Source: Dissulfurirhabdus thermomarina (GTDB taxonomy: Bacteria; Desulfobacterota; Dissulfuribacteria; Dissulfuribacterales; Dissulfurirhabdaceae). Taken from it: DNA of 64,000 nt. Under the pieces are notes generated by a model. The model was not told the DNA's origin. It worked only from the letters and a program-made list of their open reading frames with translations, and made no database searches. The stretch covers positions 62,001-126,000 of the forward strand of contig NZ_JAATWC010000001.1 in the NCBI RefSeq assembly GCF_012979235.1. Direction: 5' to 3'. Of this stretch, positions 30,492-48,843 are shown piece after piece. Within the stretch, counting starts at the first letter, position 1. Every line of letters starts with the position of its first letter. The position numbers and the translations under genes are program-made.

Positions 30492-32451
<1,960 letters not shown>

Positions 32452-32455
<4 letters not shown>

Positions 32456-33651: not shown

Positions 33652-33844
33652 AACATGTGAATGGATCCGTGGACATCTCCTTCACAAACTGCGCCCCGCC
33701 GGGCCCCCTGGAAAACGGCCCTTTTCGACAACAGGTTCTCCAGGTTTGAATTTTAACAATAACAACTACTTATTGTGTTTATCAAGTATTTGAACAGGCC
33801 TTCTTATCCTTTCTGGTTATAAATAGATATCAGGAGAATAAGAA
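33652..33844. other. AT-rich gap upstream of dnaN
   Basis: About 190 bp, the second strongly AT-rich patch in the window, with runs such as TTTGAATTTTAACAATAAC. It has TTATCCTTT and CCATTCACA, each only a partial match to the DnaA box TTATNCACA. GGTTATAAATAG lies close to dnaN, and AGGAGA is the ribosome binding site. A promoter for dnaN must be here. An origin of replication is possible but not shown by the sequence. Confidence 0.45.
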
Positions 33845-37428
<3,584 letters not shown>

Positions 37429-39839: not shown

Positions 39840-40712
39840 CTAGTCCGCCCGCATCGGCCCGGTCGGGCAGGGTTCCAGGATCGTGTTGTCGATGAGCCGG
39901 GTCTTGCCCACCCAGACCGCCAGCGCCAGCAGGGTGGGGCCGGCCAGCCGCTTCACCGGCCGGAGGGTCTCCGGGTCCCCGACGAAGACGTAGTCGATGC
40001 GGGTGCCGGGGGCGGAGCGGATGTGGGCCGCCACGGCGGCCTCGATCCGTCCCGCCTCCCGCTCTCCCTCCCGCACCAGGCGGGCGGCCAGTTCCAAAGA
40101 CGAGAAGAGGGAGAGGGCCGAACGGCGCTCTTCCGGCGAGAGGTAGGTGTTCCGGGAGCTCATGGCCAGCCCGTCGGGTTCCCGCACCACGGGGTGGGCG
40201 AGGATCTCCACCGGGAGGTCGAGGTCCGCCGCCATCCGGCGCACCACCTGGAGCTGCTGGAAGTCCTTGGCGCCGAAGACCGCCACGTCCGGGCGGACGA
40301 TGTTGAAGAGCTTGGCCACCACGGTGCAGACCCCGCGGAAGTGCCCGGGCCTGGAGGCCCCGCACAGGCCCGCGGCGAGATCCGTCACCTCCACCCAGGT
40401 CTGGTACCCGGCCGGGTACATCTCCTCGGCCGGGGGGGCGAAGAGGCAGTCCACGCCCCGGGCCTCCGCCAGGGCGGCGTCCCGCTCGAGGTCCCGCGGG
40501 TAGCGGGCGAGGTCCTCCGACGGACCGAACTGGGCCGGGTTCACGAAGAGGCTCACCACCACCCGGTCGGCCGCCTTCCGGGCCATGTCCATGAGGGAGA
40601 GGTGCCCCTCGTGGAAGTAGCCCATGGTGGGGACGAGGGCGATGCGGCGGCCCTCGGCCCGCCAGCGGTCGGCGGCCCGGCGCATGGACGACTTTTCCGT
40701 GAGGATGTCCAC
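39840..40712 (-). CDS. panC: Pantothenate synthetase
   Basis: Joins pantoate and beta-alanine using ATP. The 290-residue product has a GTG start behind GGGGAGG (MDILTEKSSMRRAADRW). Core motifs are VPTMGYFHEGHLSLMDMA (HIGH-like), VVSLFVNPAQFGPSEDL, FGAKDFQQLQVVRRM and a KMSKS-like REPDGLAMSSRNTYLSPEER. Together with panD it supplies pantothenate. It is divergent from the pilus operon, 250 bp away. Confidence 0.97.
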   Translation of the reverse strand: MDILTEKSSMRRAADRWRAEGRRIALVPTMGYFHEGHLSLMDMARKAADRVVVSLFVNPAQFGPSEDLARYPRDLERDAALAEARGVDCLFAPPAEEMYPAGYQTWVEVTDLAAGLCGASRPGHFRGVCTVVAKLFNIVRPDVAVFGAKDFQQLQVVRRMAADLDLPVEILAHPVVREPDGLAMSSRNTYLSPEERRSALSLFSSLELAARLVREGEREAGRIEAAVAAHIRSAPGTRIDYVFVGDPETLRPVKRLAGPTLLALAVWVGKTRLIDNTILEPCPTGPMRAD

Positions 40713-40837
40713 CTCGGCCTCCCCGGCGCCGGTTCCTGGTTTCCTTCTGGCCCCCGGGAGGGGGCCCGGACCGGTGCCGGTCGATTTATACCTCGTCCCG
40801 GCCCCGGCTGCACCCCGTCCCGCCTCTGCCGGCGGGT

Positions 40838-40853
40838 TGGCGGGGTTTTTGCT
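40838..40853 (+). promoter_or_regulatory. Sigma-54 type -24/-12 promoter of the pilus operon
   Basis: TGGCGG (40838-40843) and TTGCT (40849-40853) match the consensus TGGCAC-N5-TTGCW, with GG and GC exactly 12 bp apart. Transcription would start near 40864, 100 bp before the pilus ATPase gene. A PilR/NtrC-type activator is encoded at the right end of the window. The same bases form part of a CCCGCC/GGCGGG hairpin followed by T5, so a terminator-like reading is the alternative. Confidence 0.5.
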
Positions 40854-40962
40854 ATCGAAACAAGGGCATCGTGCCGATAAGCCGGAGAGCGAAGGACGGC
40901 CTTCGGGGGGCGGGGCGGTGCGCCCGGCGTTCCGGTCCTGGGCCGGCGGGACGGTTCACGAC

Positions 40963-42609
40963 ATGGCAGAGCAACGACCCCCCATAGGGAAACTCCTCAA
41001 GGACCACGGGCTCGTCTCCGAGGAACAGATCCAGTACGCCCTCCAGGAACAGCGGGCCACCGGGGAACGGCTCGGGGAGTGCCTCATGCGGCTCGGCCTC
41101 GTCACCGACGCCGAGGTGGCCCGGGCCCTGGCCCAGCAGAGCGGGCATCCCTTCGTAGACCTGCGGACCTTCCTCCCCCGCGCGGAGAACCTCGAGCGCC
41201 TTCCGGCCCAGGTCGCCCGGGACCAGAAGATCCTCCCCCTCTACAACGAAGAAGGAAGGCTCCACGTGGCCGTGGCCGACCCCTACGACCCGCGTCCCCG
41301 GGACGTGGTCTTCCGGCTCACGGGGGGCTTCCCCGAGATCCACGTCGGTGCGGAAGGGGAACTCGGCAAGGTCATCGAGCGGTTCTACTACCTCCTCGAG
41401 CACCCGCTGGACGAGCAGATCGAGGAGATGGCGGAGCGGCTTCGCCGTGACCCCGCCGGGGACCTGGACGTGGGCCGGATGGTGGACATGCTGCTCGCCG
41501 CCGCCATCAGCCAGCGGGCCACCGACGTCCACGTGAGCCCCAGCGACCGCACCGTCCGAGTGATGTTCCGGGTGGACGGTGTCACGGGCCCGGCCTACAT
41601 CTTCCCCATAGGCCTCCACAACCGGCTGGTCACCAACATCAAGGTCCGGTCGGGGATGGACATCTCCGAGCAGCGAAAACCCCAGGACGGGCGGATGTCC
41701 TTCGAATTTCTGGGAGACGCCTTCGACATCCGCGTCTCCACCGTGCGGTCCCAGTTCGGGGAGAACCTGGTGCTCCGGCTCCTGCCCGCCCGCGGCGGGA
41801 CCTTCCTCGGTATCGCCGATCTCGGGTTCGAGCCCGAGGAGCTGGCCAAGGCCCGGGAGCTCTTCGGCCTCCCCTACGGCATGGTGTTGGTCACCGGCCC
41901 CACCGGGAGCGGCAAGACCACCACCCTCTACGCCGGGCTGCGCGGGATGGACGCCATCAGCAAGAACATCCTCACCGTGGAGGACCCCATCGAGTACGAG
42001 TTCCTCCTGATCCACCAGACCCAGGTGAACGAGCGGGCGGGCTACACCTTCGCCTCCGCCATCCGGACCTTCCTCCGCCAGGACCCGGACGTGATCCTCG
42101 TGGGGGAGATCCGGGACGAGGAGACGGCGGTGCTCGCCACCCGGGCGGCGCTCACCGGGCACCTGGTGCTCTCCACCCTCCACACCAACAACGCCCTGGG
42201 CGCCGTGGCCCGGCTCCGAGACCTCGGGATCTCGCCCTATCTCCTCTCCACCTCCCTGGCCGGGATCCTGGCCCAGCGGCTGGTGCGCCGGCTCTGCTAC
42301 CGGTGCAAGGAGCGGTACCAGCCCGACAAGCACGTGCTGCGGCGCTACGGACTCCCGGAGGACGGGGAATACTACAAGGGGAAGGGCTGTGAATTCTGCC
42401 GCGGCACCGGGTACCTCGGCCGGATCGCCGTGGTGGAGATCCTCTCCATGAGCCGGGAGCTCCTTCGGCTCATCGCGGAGGAGGCCCCCATGGGGGCCAT
42501 CGAAGACCAGGCCCGGGCCGAGGGGTTCCGGGATCTCGTCGAGATCGGGAAGAAGAAGGTGCTGGCCGGGGAGACCAGCCTCGACGAGATGCAGCGGGTG
42601 CTCGGCTGA
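40963..42609 (+). CDS. MshE/GspE-type secretion ATPase
   Basis: Hexameric ATPase powering pilus or pseudopilus assembly; 548 residues. The N-terminus has two MshEN-like repeats, IGKLLKDHGLVSEEQIQYAL and RLGECLMRLGLVTDAEVARA, of the type that binds cyclic di-GMP in MshE. Walker A is VTGPTGSGKTTTLYA and Walker B is DPDVILVGEIRDEETA. The zinc motif is CYRCKERYQ with CEFCRGTGYLGR. The ATG at 40963 is chosen because upstream frame has no family sequence. First gene of a ten-gene operon. Confidence 0.93.
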   Translation: MAEQRPPIGKLLKDHGLVSEEQIQYALQEQRATGERLGECLMRLGLVTDAEVARALAQQSGHPFVDLRTFLPRAENLERLPAQVARDQKILPLYNEEGRLHVAVADPYDPRPRDVVFRLTGGFPEIHVGAEGELGKVIERFYYLLEHPLDEQIEEMAERLRRDPAGDLDVGRMVDMLLAAAISQRATDVHVSPSDRTVRVMFRVDGVTGPAYIFPIGLHNRLVTNIKVRSGMDISEQRKPQDGRMSFEFLGDAFDIRVSTVRSQFGENLVLRLLPARGGTFLGIADLGFEPEELAKARELFGLPYGMVLVTGPTGSGKTTTLYAGLRGMDAISKNILTVEDPIEYEFLLIHQTQVNERAGYTFASAIRTFLRQDPDVILVGEIRDEETAVLATRAALTGHLVLSTLHTNNALGAVARLRDLGISPYLLSTSLAGILAQRLVRRLCYRCKERYQPDKHVLRRYGLPEDGEYYKGKGCEFCRGTGYLGRIAVVEILSMSRELLRLIAEEAPMGAIEDQARAEGFRDLVEIGKKKVLAGETSLDEMQRVLG

Positions 42610-43811
42610 TGGCGACCTTTTCCTACGAGGCCCTGGACCGCGACGGGAACCGGCTCCGCGAGAGCGGGGACTTCGCCTCCCCGGCGGAGCTCTTCGTCAC
42701 CCTCCGGCAGCGGGGGCTGAGCCTCCTCCGCTACCGGCGGCGCCTCTTCCCGGGTCTCTCCTTGGAGCGGGGGCGCGTGCGCCGGCTCGTCCTCGCCGAG
42801 TTCTTCCGGAACCTGGCCCTGCTCCTCCGGGGCGGAGTCCCCCTCATGCAGGCCCTCGAGGACCTGGAGGCCAGCCCCGGCGACAAGGCGCTCAAGCGGA
42901 TCCTCACCCGAGTGGTGGCCGACGTCCGAAACGGCCGGATGTTCTCCGAGGCCCTCCGCGCCCACAGGGGGATCTTTCCCCGGATCGTCCTCGCCCTGGT
43001 CGCCATCGGCGAAGAGACCGGGAGCCTCGACCGGACCCTGGACGACGCGGGGCGCCACATCGAGCGGGTCCACGAGATCATCACCAGCACCAAGCGGGCC
43101 CTCATGTACCCCACCTTCGTGGTGGTCCTCATGCTGGTCGCCTTCTCGGTCTGGATCTTCTACGTGTTGCCCAAGATGTTGGACCTCTTCCAGGGACTGG
43201 GGCTCAAGGAGCTGCCCGCGGCCACGGTGTTCCTCATCGCCACCGTGGACGTCTGCCAGCGGTGGTGGCCGGTGGTGCCGATCTTCATCGCCTTGTTCGC
43301 GGCCCTCCGCCTGGCCGCCAGGGCGCACCCGGACCTCAAGTTCTACTGGGACGCCGCCGCCGCCCGGACCCCGGTCTTCGGGCGCATCGTCAAGGCCTCA
43401 GCCCTGGCCTTCTTCTTCGAGTATCTGTCGCTGCTCGCCTCGGCGGGCATCGACATCCTCAAGAGCCTCGATCTCATGGAGGATTCGGTGGGACACGAGG
43501 AACTCCGGCGCGGCATCCGGCGGGTCCGCGAGGACGTGATGGCCGGCTTCGGGCTCACCGAGGCCTTCGGCCGGGTGACCTTCTTCGATCCCTTCGTGCT
43601 CCGGATGGTGGGCGTCGGCGAGCAGACGGGGAACCTCCCCGAGCAGTTCCTGATCCTCGCCCGGCGGTACATGGACGAGGTGGACAAGCTCGTGGACACC
43701 CTTTCCCGCACCCTCGAGCCCATCCTCATCGTCTTTGCAGGGATCATCTTCCTGCTGGTGGCCCTGGGCCTCATCGGGCCCATCTACCAGATGGTGGGGC
43801 AGATCAAATGA
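42609..43811 (+). CDS. MshG/GspF-type inner-membrane platform protein
   Basis: Inner-membrane platform on which the ATPase acts. The 400-residue protein has two T2SSF domains, the first around GGVPLMQALEDLEASPGDKA and the second around SAGIDILKSLDLMEDSVGHE. Three membrane helices lie at about residues 175-195, 215-240 and 370-395. Family motif AIGEETGSLDRTLDD and VGEQTGNLPEQ repeats are clear. It overlaps the ATPase gene by one base and the next gene by four. Confidence 0.93.
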   Translation: MATFSYEALDRDGNRLRESGDFASPAELFVTLRQRGLSLLRYRRRLFPGLSLERGRVRRLVLAEFFRNLALLLRGGVPLMQALEDLEASPGDKALKRILTRVVADVRNGRMFSEALRAHRGIFPRIVLALVAIGEETGSLDRTLDDAGRHIERVHEIITSTKRALMYPTFVVVLMLVAFSVWIFYVLPKMLDLFQGLGLKELPAATVFLIATVDVCQRWWPVVPIFIALFAALRLAARAHPDLKFYWDAAAARTPVFGRIVKASALAFFFEYLSLLASAGIDILKSLDLMEDSVGHEELRRGIRRVREDVMAGFGLTEAFGRVTFFDPFVLRMVGVGEQTGNLPEQFLILARRYMDEVDKLVDTLSRTLEPILIVFAGIIFLLVALGLIGPIYQMVGQIK

Positions 43812-45031
43812 ACGGATTCGGCGACTACATCCAGTATTTCGGCCTCCGGGAGGCGCCCTTCCGCCTCTCCCCCGACCCGGAATTCTTCTTCCCGGCCCGG
43901 CCCCACGTGGCGGCCAAGGAGGTGCTCAAGTACGGGATCGGGCGCGGGGAGGGGTTCCTGGTGCTCATCGGGACCGCCGGGACCGGAAAGACCCTGCTCC
44001 TTCGGATGCTGCTCCAGGAACTCGATCCCAAGAAACAGCCCGCCGTCCTGCTCTCACCGGCGGTGGGCCCGGAGGGGCTCCTCCATCTCCTCCTGGAAGA
44101 GCTCGACGCGGACGATCCCGGGGTGCAGGACCGAGGCATCCTGCTCAAGCGCTTCCAGGACGCGATGCTCGACCTCGCCGAGCAGGGGCGGGAGCTCCTC
44201 GTCGTGGTGGACGAGGCCCAGAATGTTCCACGTGAAACACTGGAGCAGCTCCGGCTCCTGTCGAACCTCGAGACCCGCCGTGAAAAGCTTCTCCAGATCG
44301 TCCTGGTGGGCCAGCCGGAGCTGGAAGATGTGCTGGCGGACCCGGCCCTGGGACAGCTGACCCAGCGCGTGGCCGTCAAGGAGGTGCTGCGGCCGCTCAG
44401 CCGGGAAGAGACGGCGGAGTACGTGGCCTTCCGCCTGGCCAAGGCGGGCCGCGGCGACATGCGCCTGGACCGGCGGACCCTGGACCGGGTCTACGAGCGG
44501 ACGAAGGGGATCCCGAGGCTCGTCAACCGCCTCATGGACCGGGCCCTCCTCATGGCCTGCGCGGCCGGGAAGGGGCGGGTGGGGACCCGGGAGGTCCAGG
44601 AGTCGGGCGAGACGGTCCCCATGCCGGCGGGTGTGGTGGCCGAGGCGTCCCGGTGGCGCCGGGCGGCGGCCCTTGCCGTGCTTTCGATGACGCTCCTGGC
44701 CGGCGGCTTCGTGGCGGGGCGGATGCTCCAGGCCGACACCGGGGAACAGGCGGCCCGGCCCGCCGTCGCCCGGGAGGCCAAGGCGCCCGGGGGCGACGTG
44801 CTCCGCGTGGTGGCGCACCGCGCCTACGTGCGAAGCGGGCCGGGGAAGGCCTTCGACCCGGTGGCCCTGGCGGCAGCCGGACAGGTCCTCCGGGCAGAGG
44901 GGCGCCAGGCGGACTGGTGGCGGGTGGCCGTCCATGGCTCGGACGGTGCCGAGATCCCCGGTTGGATCCACGACAGCGTCGTTTCGGCGCGGGAGGATGC
45001 GGGCAGTGGCGCGAAGAAGATGGATCGTTGA
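43808..45031 (+). CDS. MshM/GspA (ExeA)-type AAA ATPase with C-terminal SH3b domain
   Basis: A 407-residue protein. The N-terminus YFGLREAPFRLSPDPEFFFP is the ExeA/MshM signature. Walker A is LIGTAGTGKTLLLRML, Walker B is LLVVVDEAQN, and a winged tail domain ends near 260. A transmembrane helix lies at about 283-305. The periplasmic part is an SH3b-like domain (LRVVAHRAYVRSGPGKAFDP ... WWRVAV ... PGWIHDSVV). Such proteins help the secretin pass peptidoglycan. A perfect parS site is embedded in the codons for NVPRET next to Walker B. Confidence 0.9.
   Translation: MNGFGDYIQYFGLREAPFRLSPDPEFFFPARPHVAAKEVLKYGIGRGEGFLVLIGTAGTGKTLLLRMLLQELDPKKQPAVLLSPAVGPEGLLHLLLEELDADDPGVQDRGILLKRFQDAMLDLAEQGRELLVVVDEAQNVPRETLEQLRLLSNLETRREKLLQIVLVGQPELEDVLADPALGQLTQRVAVKEVLRPLSREETAEYVAFRLAKAGRGDMRLDRRTLDRVYERTKGIPRLVNRLMDRALLMACAAGKGRVGTREVQESGETVPMPAGVVAEASRWRRAAALAVLSMTLLAGGFVAGRMLQADTGEQAARPAVAREAKAPGGDVLRVVAHRAYVRSGPGKAFDPVALAAAGQVLRAEGRQADWWRVAVHGSDGAEIPGWIHDSVVSAREDAGSGAKKMDR
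44224..44239 (+). other. parS centromere site (ParB-binding)
   Basis: TGTTCCACGTGAAACA is a perfect match to the bacterial parS consensus TGTTNCACGTGAAACA and equal to the site first found in B. subtilis spo0J. It lies in frame inside the pilus AAA-ATPase gene, where most relatives read DEAQNLS rather than DEAQNVP. It is about 10.4 kb from dnaN. I see no other copy in the window. Confidence 0.9.
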
Positions 45032-46847: not shown

Positions 46848-47299
46848 GGCAGTGGGGCCGTCTTGCGGCACCGGCCTGGGTCCTGGCTCTTGGGGTGGCC
46901 CTGGCGTGGGCCCTCGGCCCCGGGGGCGGACCGCGCCTGCCCGAGGCCAGGGTGGCCGCCTGGGCCCTGGAAAACGCCCCCGAGGGGCCGCCCGCGGCGG
47001 TGTGCGGGCGGCCGGGGCCGCCGGCCCGGCTTCCGGCCGACCCCTTCCTCCGGCCCGACCGTGCGCCGGCGGGCGGGACGCCGCCCCTCCTCCAGGAACT
47101 CTCCCTGGACCTGGTGGTGGCCTGCGGGCGCAAGACCTTCTGCAAGGTGAACGGGGCCACGCTGGCACCCGGAGACCGGGCGGGCCGGTTCCGGGTGCTG
47201 GACATCACGCGGACGGGGGTGTGGTTCGAGGTGCCGGGCCAGGGACGGGTTTTTCTCCGTCCCGGCGAGACCCGGACCCTCCCGGTGGGAGCGCCATGA
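46823..47299 (+). CDS. PilP/MshK-like assembly protein
   Basis: A 158-residue protein, GTG start at 46823 behind GAGGGGG (GTG at 46829 is an alternative). One membrane helix (about residues 14-32) precedes a Pro-rich linker. The end is a small beta domain, CKVNGATLAPGDRAGRFRVL and GVWFEVPGQGRVFLRPGETR, of the GspC/PilP homology-region type that docks on the secretin. Two Cys in VACGRKTFCKV may form a disulfide. It overlaps the secretin gene by 4 bp. Confidence 0.7.
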   Translation: MAVSTEELRQWGRLAAPAWVLALGVALAWALGPGGGPRLPEARVAAWALENAPEGPPAAVCGRPGPPARLPADPFLRPDRAPAGGTPPLLQELSLDLVVACGRKTFCKVNGATLAPGDRAGRFRVLDITRTGVWFEVPGQGRVFLRPGETRTLPVGAP

Positions 47300-48843
47300 A
47301 ACGAGAGACGGCGAAGAGACGAGGCGGGCGTGCCGCCGGTGCGGCACTCCTCGGATTCCTGCTGCTGGCCGGGTGCGCCGGTCGGCCGGCGCCACCTCCG
47401 CCCCAGGCCCCGCCCACGGCGGCCGCCGCGGAACGGCCGGCCGACCCGGCCTCCCCGCGGCGCCGGCCGGCCCCCCCGAAACCGAGGTTCAAGCGCCTGT
47501 CGCCCCTCGACACCCAGCGCGTCACCCTCAACTTCGTGGGGGAGGGCGGGGGCGCCATCCTCCTCGCCCTGGCCAAGGCGGCGGGGCTGAACCTGGTGCT
47601 GGACCCGGCCTTCGCGGCGAGCCCGGAGGCGGCGCGGCGGTTGACGGCCCAGTACCACGAGTGGCCGATCCGGGAGGTGCTCGAGTCTGTATGCACGGCC
47701 CTGGACGTGGGCTGGCGACTCGACGGGGGGACGGTCTACATCTCGCCCCTGGTGGAGCGGCTCATCCCCCTGGACTTTTTGGGCACGGTCCAGAGCTCGC
47801 GCTTCAGCGTGGGGGGCGACGTGCTAGGCGGCAATACCGCCGGGGGCGGGACGGACACCGACGTCCTCACCCCGCTCACCGGGAGCTTCGAGCTCACGGG
47901 CCAGAACTCCGCCGAGGTGACCGACATCTACAAGGGGATCGAGGCGGCCTTGAAGGACCGGCTCGGCGACGAGGGATCCTACGTCCTGAACCGGCAGACC
48001 GGCACCCTGATGGTCCGGGGCCGCCCTTCCACGGTCCGCTCCATCGAGGCCTACGTCTCCGCCCTCCGGGAGCGGTACCAGCGCCAGGTCCTCATCCAGG
48101 CGAAGATCCTCGAGATCGAGCTCGACCACCAACACGAACTGGGCATCGACTGGGGCCAGCTCACGGCCACCCTCAGCAAGGCGGCGCTCAAGGCCGGCGG
48201 GGCCGTCCTGGACGTGGCCACCACGCCCACGGATGAATCCGTCCTCTACAACCTCACCCTCTCCCAGGACTACTACAATGTGAGCACCGTGCTCCGGGCC
48301 ATGGAGGACTACGGCCGGATCCGCACCCTCTCCAACCCGCGCCTCAAGGTCACCAACGGCCAGTCCGCGGTGATCAGCGTGGGCCAGTCCGTGGCCTACT
48401 TGAAAAGCCTCGAGACGGGCACCACCACCACCTCGGGCGGGTCGAGCACCATCGCTCCAACGGCGGAGATCGGCTCCATCTTCGACGGGGTGCTCCTCGG
48501 CGTGACCCCCATCATCGAGGACGACGGGCGGGTCAGCCTCCACCTCGTCCCCATCAAGAGCGACCTCGTCTCCCTGGACGAGCGGGAGTTCGCCGGCGGG
48601 ACCCGATACACCTTCCCCCGGGTGAACCTCCGGGAGGCCTCCACCGTGGTGCGGGCGGCCTCCGGCGACATCGTCATCATCGGGGGGCTCATCCAGGAGC
48701 GGACGGACAAGGAGATGTCGGGTCTCCCGGTCCTGGACCGGCTCCCCCTGGTCGGGCGCGTCTTCCGGTACCAGCGGCGGGTCCTCCGGCGGGTGGAGAT
48801 GGTGATCCTCCTCGATGTGACGGTGCTGGACAAGGCGGGATGA
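47296..48843 (+). CDS. MshL/PilQ-family outer-membrane secretin (lipoprotein)
   Basis: Forms the outer-membrane channel. The 515-residue precursor has a lipoprotein signal, LLGFLLLAGCAG, then a Pro-rich stretch. An STN-like domain follows (VTLNFVGEGGGAILLALAKA, WPIREVLESVCTALDVGWRL) and an N1 domain around SVLNRQ-type sequence near 230. The secretin core is LIQAKILEIELDHQHELGID, RIRTLSNPRLKVTNGQSAVI, LLGVTPIIEDDGRVSLHLVP and VIIGGLIQERTDKEMSGLPV. The internal Gly/Thr-rich loop (VGGDVLGGNTAGGGTDTD) is typical of MshL. Confidence 0.92.
   Translation: MKRETAKRRGGRAAGAALLGFLLLAGCAGRPAPPPPQAPPTAAAAERPADPASPRRRPAPPKPRFKRLSPLDTQRVTLNFVGEGGGAILLALAKAAGLNLVLDPAFAASPEAARRLTAQYHEWPIREVLESVCTALDVGWRLDGGTVYISPLVERLIPLDFLGTVQSSRFSVGGDVLGGNTAGGGTDTDVLTPLTGSFELTGQNSAEVTDIYKGIEAALKDRLGDEGSYVLNRQTGTLMVRGRPSTVRSIEAYVSALRERYQRQVLIQAKILEIELDHQHELGIDWGQLTATLSKAALKAGGAVLDVATTPTDESVLYNLTLSQDYYNVSTVLRAMEDYGRIRTLSNPRLKVTNGQSAVISVGQSVAYLKSLETGTTTTSGGSSTIAPTAEIGSIFDGVLLGVTPIIEDDGRVSLHLVPIKSDLVSLDEREFAGGTRYTFPRVNLREASTVVRAASGDIVIIGGLIQERTDKEMSGLPVLDRLPLVGRVFRYQRRVLRRVEMVILLDVTVLDKAG

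Follow-up and report, generated by a model that had tools for sequence, protein, structure and literature searches.

The 16-mer at 44224–44239 of the window, that is, the whole 64,000-nucleotide stretch of DNA analyzed here, is very probably a functional chromosomal parS located within an origin-proximal ATPase gene, and it is the sole recognizable site of this kind in the genome. The evidence comes from the sequence of the site, its position, the codons in which it is written, and the relatives that carry parS in the same or in another gene.

Results and discussion

A single exact parS in the genome

The 16-mer matches the parS consensus TGTTNCACGTGAAACA exactly (Table 1). A search with TGTTNCACGTGNAACA gives this position as the one exact match in the window and no match in 100 shuffles, and at up to one mismatch it is the only match in the whole genome (2,461,349 bases, 99.13% complete, 34 contigs). 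At two mismatches, three matches are found genome-wide; they do not cluster, and the backward-read control gives a similar level. Moreover, with a third-order Markov model built on contig C1, only 0.0015 parS matches are expected by chance in the genome. The preliminary description of this DNA had proposed a perfect site, very unlikely by chance, and had suggested a genome-wide search of the motif; both counts bear it out. Promoter-like and terminator-like elements were looked for near the site, and none were found.

Table 1. Coordinates of the features in the window
Feature	Position	Strand	Remark
HAD-hydrolase gene	31781..32455	-	parS carrier in 16 relatives, not here
CGTTCCACGTGGGCCG	31869..31884	-	Where relatives have the HAD-gene parS; four mismatches to parS
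AT-rich intergenic stretch, predicted oriC region	33652..33844	.	GC-skew minimum at 32–34 kb and AT content; upstream of dnaN
dnaN	33845..35017	+	
gyrB	35014..37428	+	Approximate start
PilB/GspE-family ATPase gene	40624..42609	+	
PilC/GspF-family inner-membrane protein gene	42609..43811	+	
MshM/GspA-like AAA ATPase gene (host gene)	43808..45031	+	407 aa; AAA_22, C-terminal SH3_3; MSHA-type pilus operon; from domains and operon context
parS site TGTTCCACGTGAAACA	44224..44239	+	Codons 139–144 (NVPRET) of the ATPase gene
MshL-type secretin gene	46852..48843	+	TIGR02519, 255.7 bits (cut-off 250.2)

Position with respect to the predicted origin and the segregation genes

Along contig C1 (713 kb), cumulative GC skew is lowest at 94–96 kb, corresponding to 32–34 kb of the window. 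Of the 100 kb scanned for AT content, the 200 bases richest in A and T are found beside this minimum, just upstream of dnaN. Together, the skew minimum and the AT-rich stretch place parS ~10 kb from the predicted origin; since no consensus DnaA boxes were found near dnaN, the oriC placement is a prediction. The site lies 10.4 kb from the start of dnaN and 6.8 kb from the end of gyrB; the preliminary description had given 10.4 kb from dnaN-gyrB in proposing an origin-proximal parS to be checked with a GC-skew plot. Regarding other features of the contig, dnaA is located at C1:550136-551428, whereas the predicted origin, at dnaN-gyrB, is ~450 kb away from it, and the 10-kb bin C1:310001-320000 reads 36% GC only due to N bases (5,000 N in the contig).

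The presence of parB, another check named at the outset, was confirmed: a chromosomal ParB gene (191 bits) is found 4.3 kb ahead of the window, at C1:57200-57697. It is ~38 kb from the predicted origin, farther away than parS. In an alignment to Caulobacter ParB, this protein carries the equivalents of R173 and G201, the parS-type specificity residues, which are reported to be invariant among ParB orthologues but to differ in Noc (PMC7383237). A Noc-binding site (NBS) was therefore discarded as an identity for the 16-mer, Noc having Q173, K179, K184, and R201 where the ParB encoded here has R, S, R, and G. SMC is also encoded in the genome.

These data bear on the possibility that the 16-mer is a secondary or relic parS, to which ParB binds while the main centromere is found at another place, either hidden in an assembly gap or made up of diverged sites. 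The 34 contigs do leave gaps, and several near-consensus sites are present in some relatives (e.g., G030 and G010). However, the genome is 99% complete and offers no other site at up to one mismatch, the neighborhood of parAB holds none at up to three mismatches, and a run of six rare codons such as the one described below would not persist in an unselected relic, so that we consider this alternative unlikely.

The host gene and the motif after Walker B

Because AAA_22 and SH3_3 domains are combined with PilB/GspE- and PilC/GspF-family genes directly upstream and an MshL-type secretin gene downstream, the description that fits the host gene best is that of an MshM/GspA-like ATPase within an MSHA-type pilus operon, a name that draws on domains and gene context. 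Dedicated MshM models gave no match to the ATPase at cut-off. The XrtA/PEP-CTERM-associated ATPase (TIGR03015) was considered for this gene and rejected, its score of 239.9 bits being below the curated cut-off of 324.5.

The frame of the ATPase is open along its entire length and includes the site, in agreement with the proposal that a parS has been accommodated inside the gene. The six codons (AAT GTT CCA CGT GAA ACA) follow directly after Walker B with DEAQ. It had also been proposed that the site converts a usual DEAQNLS into DEAQNVP, and this stands only in part. Val in place of Leu is indeed unusual, but Pro is normal, because DEAQ[N/D]LPx[E/D]T is what most orthologues have at this position, in ordinary codons; Arg, on the other hand, is unusual as well. 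These two residues are the only ones that depart from the orthologues, and both recur in G010 and G030.

Codon choice at the site

All six codons of the site end in A or T in a region of 72% GC, whereas such codons amount to ~6% in the predicted genes of C1. Among the 175,764 six-codon windows of the 512 predicted C1 genes, only two are fully A/T-ending and only 10 are equally rare in codon choice; the codons flanking 139–144 are ordinary. The best reading of this codon usage is that parS in the ATPase gene would be kept by selection at the DNA level.

Runs of rare codons can slow translation, and selection for slower synthesis or for folding of the ATPase, and not for ParB, could account for the run, its location directly after Walker B being compatible with such a role. 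Nonetheless, most orthologues use different codons there, and the rare codons fall exactly on the parS consensus, with ordinary codons around them, which makes this explanation extremely improbable.

Relatives carrying the site in the ATPase gene

At the equivalents of codons 139–144, G030 has AAT GTT CCA CGT GAA ACT and G010 has AAT GTT CCC CGT GAA ACA, each being one mismatch from parS, in G010 within the CACGTG core. Both genomes belong to families other than that of the source genome, and their copies match a "Thermodesulfobacteriaceae bacterium" MAG and a MAG labeled Desulfobulbus propionicus. A DNA-pattern scan of the genome collection, from which records very near the source genome were possibly excluded, found ATPase copies only in the records of these two genomes, and a scan of the genome contigs with the ATPase protein confirmed no relatives. 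Conservation of the ATPase parS throughout the order was ruled out, as most orthologues are without the site.

A comparison of pilB, pilC, the ATPase gene, and gyrB in the three carriers (source genome, G010, and G030) reveals that, of 1,481 six-codon windows, the parS codons together with their one-codon-shifted neighbor are the most conserved, although, where residues are shared, these genomes use the same codon at a fraction of only 0.19–0.35.

These copies bear on chance as an explanation, that is, a 16-mer produced by the peptide NVPRET with no parS role. The LPxET motif of the family predisposes to such an outcome, and one orthologue lacking the site differs from it by no more than three mismatches. 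Against this, beyond the very low number of matches expected genome-wide, the product of codon frequencies for NVPRET in the parS spelling is ~3e-10, and in-register copies with the same origin linkage are found in two other families; chance is thus highly unlikely.

The origin linkage of the carriers is as follows. In all three, the pilB-pilC-ATPase block lies 3–8 kb after gyrB. In G003, G005, G007, G013, G025, G033, and G035, where the ATPase site is absent, no gyrB is found within 11–16 kb upstream of pilB, and in the closed genome G004, also without the site, the pilus operon and gyrB are ~0.58 Mb apart. Linkage to gyrB is therefore observed in 3/3 carriers vs 0/8 non-carriers with enough flanking sequence (Fisher p = 0.006), a value that is indicative because the genomes are few and related. 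The presence of the ATPase site in three apparently non-sister lineages may be ancestral, or the site may have moved with the operon or arisen more than once.

A coding-sequence parS of relatives across the predicted origin

An exact parS at the 3' end of a HAD-hydrolase gene, always in the same register, is shared by 16 genomes from five families (L190-L195, L197-L199, L201-L203, L206, L217, L218, and L013). This site lies near dnaN, across the predicted origin from the ATPase, and encodes the peptide [M/L]FHV[E/K]HF; it represents a coding-sequence parS of long standing in the order. At the same register, one mismatch to parS is found in G009, four in the source genome, and seven in G010. 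The sequence of the source genome, CGTTCCACGTGGGCCG, may be a decayed parS or merely the protein motif written in GC-rich codons. We do not take it for an unambiguous fossil, because residues resembling FHV are also present at this place in parS-less relatives and the GC-rich codons TTC CAC GTG resemble half of a parS. In a gyrB tree the source genome groups (86/96) with lineages that include the HAD-site carriers G003 and G009, so loss of the HAD site in its own lineage would be the simpler history.

Two further arrangements were observed. Several members of family f9 (L177, L178, G008, and G023) have near-consensus parS sites, for example GGTTCCACGTGCAACA, ~0.5 kb from parB, this parB-adjacent site being a third kind of parS location in the same order. 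In L173 (G009:C109), a HAD-gene parS-like site is followed by dnaN and gyrB; another parS-like site (TGTTTCACGTGAAATA) comes next, and the genes downstream come after it with no pilus operon, which implies that the operon was inserted or lost at that place in different lineages.

Proposed explanation

In the explanation that we favor, a functional parS in the ATPase gene, the chromosomal ParB would load at the 16-mer and nucleate the partition complex, which in turn would recruit SMC near the origin. Selection on the DNA would hold six codons that are otherwise disfavored, and the ATPase would tolerate V-P-R-E-T after Walker B because the LPxET already present in the family is close to it. From the sequences compared, we infer ParB binding, the segregation function, and a relocation from the HAD-hydrolase to the ATPase gene in the lineage of the source genome.

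Within the order, parS would often remain in the dnaN-gyrB neighborhood while its host gene varies: commonly it would be the HAD-hydrolase gene, to one side of the origin, and in genomes with the pilus operon past gyrB, to the opposite side, the ATPase gene. The host gene would then be incidental, and the origin-side position would be what is kept. The broader proposal, in which the centromere of the order is commonly intragenic and has shifted between the HAD hydrolase and the pilus ATPase as operons moved, with selection preserving its position at the origin and not its host gene, has in our judgment an even chance of being right. If the 16-mer works as proposed, nature provides here an example of a bacterium whose only recognizable centromere lies within a coding sequence, and the comparative series suggests that parS follows the origin neighborhood and not the gene. 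Both centromere turnover and the cost of overlap between a centromere and a protein motif become directly testable.

Comparison with known systems

That parS sites can lie within genes is well established. The sole intragenic site and the natural difference in host gene between lineages are new, no description of either having been found in the literature searched. In Pseudomonas aeruginosa PAO1, 9 out of 10 parS are predicted within coding sequences, and the sites cluster near oriC (PMC4368675). The consensus is the same, and intragenic sites are found in both cases; however, PAO1 has ten sites including an intergenic one, whereas a single intragenic site is found here. In Corynebacterium glutamicum, parS1 is located in trpCF, and one site alone gives wild-type-like growth (PMC7083940). 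Here too parS is inside a coding sequence, and in that bacterium one site is sufficient, although its nine further natural sites are intergenic and the single-site state was engineered.

A further comparison is the HAD-gene parS of the same order, likewise an exact parS in a coding sequence and beside dnaN, but in another gene, across the predicted origin, and with a different peptide from NVPRET. Finally, extra parS clusters in Caulobacter are tolerated best near the native site (PMC5815017). Such a permissive zone fits a turnover confined to the origin neighborhood, with the difference that those clusters were experimental insertions, whereas here the host genes differ naturally between lineages.
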